A stretch of 48,363 nucleotides of DNA from an uncultured Clostridium sp. (GTDB taxonomy: Bacteria > Bacillota > Clostridia > Lachnospirales > Lachnospiraceae), in contig CAMNRM010000039.1 in NCBI GenBank assembly GCA_946553025.1, positions 1 to 48,363 of the forward strand, given 5' to 3'. The notes under the pieces are model-generated. The model did not search any database and was not told where the DNA came from. It saw only the letters and a program-made list of their open reading frames with translations. Shown here in pieces: positions 3,999 to 36,425 of this stretch (positions are counted from its first letter, which is position 1; each line of letters starts with the position of its first letter). Both the position numbers and the translations under genes were made by a program.

Positions 3999-4036
3999 GT
4001 TATGGTTCACACAGGTTTGCGCATGTGAACCGTAAC
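3999..4036. repeat. Intergenic hairpin element upstream of parE
   Basis: GTTATGGTTCACA (3999-4011) and TGTGAACCGTAAC (4024-4036) are 13-nt inverted arms with one mismatch (wobble in RNA) around a 12-nt loop. It ends 18 nt before the parE start codon, so it lies in the 5' leader. It is the best-formed member of the window's hairpin family. Confidence 0.75.
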
Positions 4037-18920: not shown

Positions 18921-18935
18921 GCCCCTGCCAAGGAG

Positions 18936-19018
18936 TGCCGGCCGCGGGACTTGAACCCGCACGATGTTGCCATCAATGGATTTTGAGTCCACCTCGTCTG
19001 CCATTCCGACAGGCCGGC
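18936..19018 (-). tRNA. tRNA-Leu (anticodon CAA)
   Basis: On the minus strand GCCGGCC pairs with GGCCGGC, with the T-arm GCGGG-TTCAAGT-CCCGC and a long variable arm (TGATGGCAACATCG), as in class II tRNAs. The anticodon loop CTCAAAA gives CAA. Discriminator A is at 18936. CCA is not encoded. Confidence 0.93.
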
Positions 19019-19048
19019 TTCTGGCACATTCATGCCAACAACACGAAT

Positions 19049-19077
19049 ATCATAGCACAGTTTTTCTTCCTTGACAA
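19049..19077 (-). promoter_or_regulatory. Promoter of tRNA-Leu
   Basis: Minus strand TTGTCA (19072-19077), 17-bp spacer, TATGAT (19049-19054). Confidence 0.7.
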
Positions 19078-19115
19078 GTATTTTTTTGGCTTTTTTGCTT
19101 TTTTTCAATACCCTG

Positions 19116-19293
19116 AATTTGCGGTTCACGGGGGTGCGTAGGCGGGGGCATGTTCCGTGAGGAATCCCCTCAAAAAACACCGGCGCTTAACGAGGTCTTT
19201 TCGAGTTTAGCGTCCGCTGTGTTCTTTTGCGGAGCGAGAGCGCGGTGACGACGGAATATGTCCCCGCCGCAGCAGCCCTGTGAACCGCAAATT
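19116..19293. repeat. 178-bp highly structured inverted-repeat element abutting the recombinase gene
   Basis: Outer arms AATTTGCGGTTCAC (19116-19129) and GTGAACCGCAAATT (19280-19293) are perfect. Pairing continues through GGGG/CCCT and TGC/GCA, then an 18-bp stem between 19141-19158 and 19251-19268 that is fully paired in plus-strand RNA (two G-U pairs). The top holds three hairpins: GAGG/CCTC (19159-19171), AACAC/GTGTT with inner pairing (19176-19223), and a short one near 19230-19243. The right end coincides with the recombinase stop codon TAA (19295-19293). It may be a mobile repeat, a structured RNA or both. Confidence 0.75.
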
Positions 19294-19925
19294 TACGCTT
19301 TCTTTTTTCTCTCCCCCTCCTCCTGCAGCGCACGAACCCTCTTATAAAAGCCCTGCCTGCTCAGCCCGCATTTTGTGGCGGCCTCGGTTACGGTGATTTC
19401 TTTCCGGTTGTACTGCTTTAAAATTTTATCGAAATTGGGAATTTCCCGCAGATCACGTCCGAAATGTGTTCCGTTTGCCTTGGCCAGGGCAATCCCTTCC
19501 TGCTGGCGCTGGCGGATATTTTCTCTTTCGGTCTGGGCCACATAGGAGAGGATCTGCAAAACCAAATCTGCAATAAACGTTCCTGTAAGATCTTTCCCCT
19601 TTGCACGGGTATCTAAGAGCGGCATATCCAAAACGACGATATTTGCCTGGATTTCCTTGGTTAAAAGTTTCCATTGTTCTAAAATTTCTTCATAGTTTCT
19701 TCCGAGCCGGTCGATGGATTTAATCACCAGCAGATCTCCGGGGCCGATTTTTTCGATTAATTCTTTCCATCCCGGACGCAGAAAATCTTTTCCGCTTTTC
19801 TTATCCATGTAGATATTTTCGGATTTAATCGAAAAAGATGACAGAGCACGGAGCTGCCGGGCTTCATTCTGCTCCTGGGTGGACACCCGCACATAGCCGT
19901 AAACCTGATGTTTTCTTTTTCTCAT
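19293..19925 (-). CDS. Serine recombinase, resolvase/invertase family (copy 1)
   Basis: A 210-aa small serine recombinase that breaks and rejoins DNA at paired sites. The catalytic serine lies in YGYVRVSTQEQNEARQ (about 7-22); other landmarks are [41 protein letters not shown] and ERENIRQRQQEGIALAK, followed by a C-terminal helix-turn-helix (ITVTEAATKCGLSRQGFYKRV). Length fits resolvases and invertases. ATG 19925 has AAGGAGGGG upstream; the longer frame to 20024 does not. No invertible segment with flanking sites was found. It is closely related to copy 2 at 35817. Its stop codon touches the structured repeat at 19116-19293. Confidence 0.9.
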   Translation of the reverse strand: MRKRKHQVYGYVRVSTQEQNEARQLRALSSFSIKSENIYMDKKSGKDFLRPGWKELIEKIGPGDLLVIKSIDRLGRNYEEILEQWKLLTKEIQANIVVLDMPLLDTRAKGKDLTGTFIADLVLQILSYVAQTERENIRQRQQEGIALAKANGTHFGRDLREIPNFDKILKQYNRKEITVTEAATKCGLSRQGFYKRVRALQEEGERKKKA

Positions 19926-21589: not shown

Positions 21590-21615
21590 GTTACTGTGAA
21601 CATGTGAACGGTAAC
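21590..21615. repeat. Intergenic hairpin element upstream of rnc
   Basis: GTTACTGT (21590-21597) pairs with ACGGTAAC (21608-21615) with one G-U pair and a 10-nt loop. It ends 17 nt before the rnc start and 5 nt before its AGGAGG. This is the clearest GTTACTGT...GTAAC version. Confidence 0.75.

Positions 21616-35621: not shown

Positions 35622-36425
<804 letters not shown>

Follow-up and report, generated by a model that had tools for sequence, protein, structure and literature searches.

A folded intergenic repeat of Lachnospiraceae and its probable carriage by MITE ends in one host genome

A 178-bp palindrome lies between a tRNA-Leu gene and a serine recombinase gene in the window, the whole 48,363-nt stretch of uncultured Clostridium sp. 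DNA analysed here. Its left end is about 100 bp from the tRNA gene, and its other end touches the recombinase gene. What kind of element is this, how did it arrive, and does either neighbour have a part in it? A sequence-only reading had proposed a structured, high-copy and undescribed repeat, moved by the adjoining recombinase or, like REP sequences, by a dedicated transposase. The features discussed below are collected in Table 1.

Table 1 Features of the palindromic element and its neighbours (window coordinates)
Feature	Position	Strand	Remark
Whole palindromic element, 178 bp: structured-repeat core inside MITE frame	19116..19293	+	Arms pair 2 bases past the frame
P1, 5' arm of long stem	19116..19158	+	Partner 19251-19293
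P1, 3' arm of long stem	19251..19293	+	Partner 19116-19158
MITE frame, 174 bp, same length as 7 other class A copies	19118..19291	+	Flanks ACCCTGAA vs TTTACGCT, 1/8 match
Left terminal inverted repeat, altered	19118..19129	+	TTTGCGGTTCAC instead of GTTACTGTTCAC; sequence comparison
Right terminal inverted repeat, changed like the left one	19280..19291	-	Sequence comparison
Structured core, full match to covariance model R1, 153.1 bits	19133..19276	+	Window copy is among the 25 model-building copies
P2, 5' strand GGAATC	19161..19166	+	Pairs with 19244-19249; positions from sequence
P2, 3' strand GGTGAC	19244..19249	+	Pairs with 19161-19166; positions from sequence
P3/P4 irregular hairpin, 5' strand, most conserved part	19175..19194	+	With 19202-19225; mapped from alignment
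P3/P4 irregular hairpin, 3' strand	19202..19225	+	Mapped from alignment
P5 hairpin GC-GAGA-GC, GNRA-type loop	19234..19241	+	Positions from sequence
Serine recombinase, Resolvase PF00239, 210 aa; resident, outside element	19293..19925	-	Stop codon shares one base with element
tRNA-Leu (CAA), unrelated neighbour	18935..19018	-	

The structured palindrome is real, and it folds far beyond shuffled sequence. Its arms are about as long as first read (some 43 bases), with bases 1-43 matching the reverse complement of bases 136-178 at 84%. Folded as RNA, the plus strand reaches -109.5 kcal/mol (z -10.65) and the minus strand -83.6 kcal/mol (z -6.79), while the element folded as single-stranded DNA has a z of -9.54; in all three cases, none of 200 shuffles equalled the native sequence. 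The plus strand is the better-folding one, as had been suggested, but because the fold is strong as both RNA and DNA, folding energy cannot separate the two. The proposed G-U bias towards the plus strand stood for the long stem P1, whose non-canonical pairs are GT/TG rather than AC/CA by 16 to 6 in host copies and by 58 to 19 in relatives; it did not extend to the P3/P4 hairpin of relatives, where the counts are 16 and 14. The top of the element is structured, but the small AGG..CCT hairpin drawn there by energy folding is probably not part of the true fold. Covariation instead favours a probable helix, GGAAUC/GGUGAC, that would close a three-way junction.

We searched the host genome with the 178 bases and obtained 55 matching pieces, a number that includes split matches and second-strand matches of single copies. 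A covariance model of the core (R1), built from 25 host copies, gave 33 matches, so the repeat is not single-copy and its predicted high copy number was borne out. Host copies fall into two classes. Class A comprises 174-bp pieces that are 94-98% alike to the window copy and carry inverted ends GTTACTGTTCAC. Class B copies are about 140 nt long, 75-89% alike to the window copy, and have only the core in common with it, without GTTACTGTTCAC ends. Truncated pieces are also present. In two copies of class A (L013, L015) and two of class B (L041, L044), an extra domain of about 70 bp sits at the tip of the P3/P4 hairpin; its occurrence at the same tip in MITE-borne and plain copies indicates that both classes share one core. 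This domain holds a second hairpin of GCGAGG..CGAG type.

From the alignments, we predict that the core is a three-way junction composed of a long, variable P1-P2 stem, a conserved irregular P3/P4 hairpin and a short P5 GNRA hairpin. In the host alignment, 98.5% of cells are paired and two-sided changes occur in 23 of 43 pairs; four of five covariation measures exceeded all 500 shuffles, and the fifth (further pair types) did not (299/500). Across genera, an alignment of relatives (74 rows, one a second-strand match) is 93.2% paired, with two-sided changes in 41 of the 43 modelled pairs and in 880 cells compared with 234 in shuffles, and all five measures lay above all 500 shuffles. These counts lean towards structure, since the relatives' alignment is model-fitted and rows within a genome are related; with paralogues as rows, the covariation counts are not independent events. 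P2 lies outside the model and was scored separately, giving a mean best score of 12.09, whereas 200 partner permutations averaged 8.47 (sd 0.21) and reached 8.97 at most. The host lineage has two central G-A mismatches in P2, and many relatives have Watson-Crick pairs at those places. Covariation beyond column composition was thus found in the host, cross-genus and P2 tests alike. P1 varies at every pair across relatives, which DNA fold-back repair could explain without selection on RNA, and the case for a selected fold therefore rests on P2 to P5. A fold kept across genera in this way implies that something reads it.

Of 172 rows, 167 allowed the P5 loop to be placed; it is GNRA in 160 of these and has another sequence in 7. 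Two of the five rows without the P5 pattern (L065 and L082) have, by eye, a GNRA loop on an altered stem. GNRA loops take seven of the eight possible sequences, and every loop bounded by G..A has a purine in its third position. DNA, too, can form sheared G-A pairs and loops closed by G-A.

Shared terminal inverted repeats were found genome-wide, with 121 TIR-like sites per strand at no more than two mismatches compared with 19 and 16 in controls, and GTTACTGTTCAC-type ends also bound shorter pieces of 28, 30, 51, 54 and 115 bp. We examined the flanks of 18 elements, namely the ten class A copies in which both ends are present and eight small elements in which both were recognised. In 12 of the 18, the two flanking 8-mers agree at seven or all eight positions, as they do in none of 306 cross-pairings. 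Target-site duplications of 8 bp therefore accompany sister copies, in which they stand in for empty sites. They do not do so for the window copy, where we found no target duplication (1/8); the other five elements without a clear 8-bp duplication are C48 and C33 (1 each), C14 (4) and two of the small elements (6 each). By eye, the arms of C14 and C48 seem to extend outward too. The ends AATTTGCGGTTCAC, which the sequence-only reading expected to be conserved, were seen in the window copy only, and the nine other MITE-borne copies examined have GTTACTGTTCAC or near variants. The window as a whole holds nine GTTACTGTTCAC-like sites with up to two mismatches, compared with 1.72 expected and a maximum of 5 in 100 shuffles. 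The clearest is a 38-bp palindrome at 3999-4036 (flanking 8-mers 7/8 by eye), and further sites lie at 1402, 9601, 12895 and 21590-21615.

We then turned to the neighbours. The palindrome does begin at the recombinase stop codon, correct to one base: the minus-strand TAA occupies 19295-19293, and its last base is the first of the palindrome. This overlap is what speaks for a repeat mobilised by the adjoining serine recombinase, a reading that we hold to be extremely unlikely. Orthologues of the recombinase (67-71%) occur in four relatives (G490, G488, G111 and G485), in two of which (G111 and G485) they lie near plsX, as here, with the repeat absent. None of nine loci searched at relatives' recombinase orthologues or tRNA-Leu carried the repeat, and the simplest view is that the repeat came later, next to a gene already resident. 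The host has no second close copy of the recombinase gene, the next three matches being about 70% alike over 220-260 bases. Apart from these stretches, the gene has no other notable matches in the genome, and copies of the repeat elsewhere lack it, as had been expected of some copies. No further copy of the repeat was seen next to a close relative of this recombinase, and no protein is widely common to the neighbours of copies in relatives. A second Resolvase-like ORF, named from similarity, lies at 35661-36425 (+) of the window and shares about 70% DNA similarity with the first recombinase over 222 bases. The tRNA appears to be there by chance, and we rejected a link to tRNA genes: a tRNA adjoins only one of 34 own-genome loci examined, that of the window copy. 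Between element and tRNA, at 19040-19090 (-), is a promoter-like TTGTCA/TATGAT pair for tRNA-Leu, seen by eye.

How widely is the core distributed? It was found in 85 of 250 genomes of the same family including the host (84 of 249 without it), nearly every genome representing another genus, and no match was detected in the other 165. Wider draws gave 18 of 246 genomes order-wide and 7 of 391 class-wide, and the matches listed all fell in the host's own family. Strict filters and the few candidates scored per genome make the counts from these large searches lower bounds. Deeper scoring yielded copy numbers of 33 in the host, 77 in G060, at least 150 in G016, 36 in G180, 13 in G207 and 11 in G309. 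A pattern scan of named genomes yielded 24 stretches, of which, by their titles, 19 were from Lachnospiraceae, 1 from Acetatifactor, 2 from an unspecified bacterium, 1 from Clostridia and 1 from a Sphingobacterium MAG; 23 of the 24 had a model match. The Sphingobacterium MAG stretch (L135) has the core pattern and lacks a full model match. Carriage by phages or plasmids was dropped, as phage and plasmid collections gave no match to the window element and viral contigs gave none to two exact core patterns.

Copies are intergenic, with only 2 of 105 inside an ORF of at least 100 aa by a simple ORF caller. Among 99 copies with a neighbour on that side, the 3' end is turned towards a stop codon in 58 (37 within 50 bp) and towards a start in 41 (12 within 50 bp); gaps on the 5' side are wider, with medians of 154 and 164 bp. 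A very stable stem near stop codons in many copies is what a simple transcription terminator or mRNA-stability hairpin, spread by chance duplications, would look like. We think this quite improbable: the conserved three-way junction with its loops and mismatches exceeds what a terminator needs, and 32 G016 copies have no long T-run after the stem, just a loosely kept CCTTT-like stretch.

Another alternative is a multi-copy structured RNA with a host function, in which each copy would be transcribed and folded, would bind a protein or regulate transcripts from its surroundings, and the MITE merely copied one of them. The GNRA pattern with its purines at the third place, the covariation of P2-P4 and the placement of 3' ends near the stops of convergent genes all speak for such an RNA, as does an orthologous copy kept at the same site in two species of one genus (L073/L083), with 137 of 141 columns identical. 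We had considered that this copy was better conserved than its surroundings. At that locus, 100-bp bins over the copy are 98 and 99% identical, but those at 801-1200, 300-700 bp from the copy, are also 97-99%, with 86-97% elsewhere, so no special constraint is demonstrated and the idea was dropped. Upstream of 167 copies, sigma-A promoters were not enriched over antisense, downstream or shuffled sequence, which weakens the reading as an independent RNA gene. There is also no constant gene neighbour: setting aside ORFs over the repeat itself, no neighbour protein was shared by more than 2 of 35 loci. The copy number, which runs from none detected to at least 150, argues against a host function as well. 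On balance, we regard a host-function RNA as possible though on the unlikely side.

Close copies (less than 600 bp apart) are mostly divergent. All 26 such pairs in three genomes are divergent, 5'-to-5' (4 in the host, G000; 19 in G491; at least 3 in G016), and among fetched G016 loci the close pairs were divergent in 5 of 5. Strict divergence holds for these three genomes and is broken elsewhere, where nine close pairs comprise 5 divergent (L082, L068, L075, G221, G288), 4 same-direction and no convergent ones. The same-direction tandem copies (L062, L144, L146, G115:C131) are 14-583 bp apart and differ from the divergent pairs of the host genus. By eye, a G491 pair forms one unit, in which a left and a right arm flank a spacer with short tandem repeats and the right arm is followed by a tail that ends in AACAAAGCATTAAATTTT. 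Right-end sites number 34 in G491 compared with 0 in the control. In the ten G491 loci that we read, the unit is complete, deleted or hybrid, or only its bare ends are present. In paired units of this genome (L183-L202, L230-L253), the tail has a tandem repeat of about 35 bp, and two loci (L233, L241) resemble hybrids of a left arm with a right one, such as a recombinational deletion inside the core might leave. No autonomous parent was found among the ten loci, in which no ORF inside a unit exceeds 123 aa; the 123-aa ORF is in L243, which carries an unrelated-looking insert.

Inverted doublets recall REP sequences, among which head-to-head doublets predominate according to the available text of PMC3733652. 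The element could be related to REP doublets, though larger, and an HUH tyrosine transposase (RAYT) would move it in the form of folded single-stranded DNA. Likeness to the REP/REPIN system with its RAYT lies in intergenic palindromes, high copy number and, for the 26 close pairs of three genomes, inverted doublets, as far as the consulted portions of the sources describe them (PMC3733652, PMC3116915, PMC2817692), together with the single-strand fold. The element is 140-178 bp long compared with 20-40 bp for a REP, and its copies have no conserved GTAG tag, with CGTC-like 3' bases in some copies only (by eye). We searched 15 genomes for the Y1 transposase domain PF01797 and did not find it in five carriers of the repeat, namely the host (G000), G491, G060, G057 and G180, although a gene could have been missed in these draft genomes. 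It is present in the carriers G016, G194, G207 and G309, as well as in five of six genomes that gave no repeat match. A resident RAYT/IS200 enzyme was accordingly rejected for the five carriers without PF01797, and the earlier analogy to a REP with a dedicated tyrosine transposase is not supported. The same-direction pairs in other genomes and the 8-bp duplications at MITE-borne copies also count against the REPIN-like reading, which we judge improbable.

Taken together, these data make it probable that the element is a non-autonomous mobile repeat of two layers, a family-wide folded core that in class A has been captured within MITE ends. Copy number, the conserved fold, the MITE ends, the 8-bp duplications of sister copies and the lack of any widely shared neighbour gene all speak for it. 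The inner layer would be the core of about 140 nt, whose plus strand would fold into the three-way junction. The outer layer, present in ten host copies including the window's, would provide GTTACTGTTCAC ends on which a transposase acting in trans could move the 174-bp piece. The same enzyme would also move the 244-bp pieces with the extra domain and the pieces of 28 to 115 bp, duplicating 8 bp of target each time. Ordinary transposition in trans is the best-supported route for class A, and we infer that such a transposase exists. The window copy presumably came by this route and then lost its duplication. Its symmetric end changes may have arisen in a fold-back, with one arm serving as template for the other, and this would have erased the duplication.

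Several observations weigh against the two-layer reading. No transposase-bearing copy with GTTACTGTTCAC ends was recognised among the TIR sites that were opened, a part of those in a draft host assembly, and 14 further TIR sites showed no end pair round a transposase as judged by paired ends and ORF lengths. In addition, the window copy lacks both a duplication and standard ends, five of the other elements examined have no clear duplication, and one covariation measure of the host alignment did not exceed shuffles. The core itself would owe its conservation to a spreading enzyme or a host factor that recognises the folded single strand. Its working form seems more likely to be RNA than DNA, given the GNRA loops and their third-position purines, although the missing promoter enrichment speaks against RNA; single-stranded DNA is a possible form, and perfect P1 pairing could arise from DNA fold-back repair with no need for selection on RNA.

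Does the element belong to a known system? Of 4227 Rfam families, none reached its gathering cut-off in the window, none did so at the repeat when 20 loci were searched, and the window element gave no match even at E up to 5. With no description among the matches listed in the open-access literature either, the element appears to be undescribed, as first supposed. Like Rfam's structured RNAs, it has covarying helices and a GNRA-type loop, but it matched no family. Ribozymes, IscB/TnpB guide RNAs and riboswitches were dismissed as well, with the Rfam search as the only test. MITEs with 8-bp duplications are similar in being short, present in many copies, with inverted ends, duplications at sister copies and no ORF seen, and differ in that the element here has a complex and conserved folded core, which occurs without MITE ends as well. 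The bcr1 repeat of the Bacillus cereus group (147-167 bp) is, in the available text of PMC2267715, similar in size, dispersed and predicted to share a common fold, with mobile traits indicated by a reference title. It is set apart by that description, having another host group, whereas the repeat studied here covaries across many genera, includes a three-way junction and can take up an extra domain as a module. In kind, the element is thus akin to structured intergenic repeats such as bcr1 and to MITEs; it is distinct by its cross-genus three-way junction, its modular domain and its frequent back-to-back pairing.

A bolder proposal, which we consider rather unlikely, is that the core represents a structured RNA of a new class, seen to date in one bacterial family only (Lachnospiraceae by named records) and itself the selfish or working unit. 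It would spread in a manner that depends on its fold, as a SINE-like template or as the folded substrate of an unknown enzyme, to between about 10 and at least 150 copies in the six more deeply scored genomes, with close copies mostly back-to-back and capture by a MITE secondary. A covarying structured nucleic acid in about one-third of the sampled genomes of this family would represent a new RNA family or else a fold read by a hidden mobility enzyme. Moreover, a MITE is seen here carrying and amplifying a structured element. Plain, MITE-borne and extra-domain copies, together with divergent pairs, form a natural series in which to follow how folded repeats may spread without a resident Y1 transposase.
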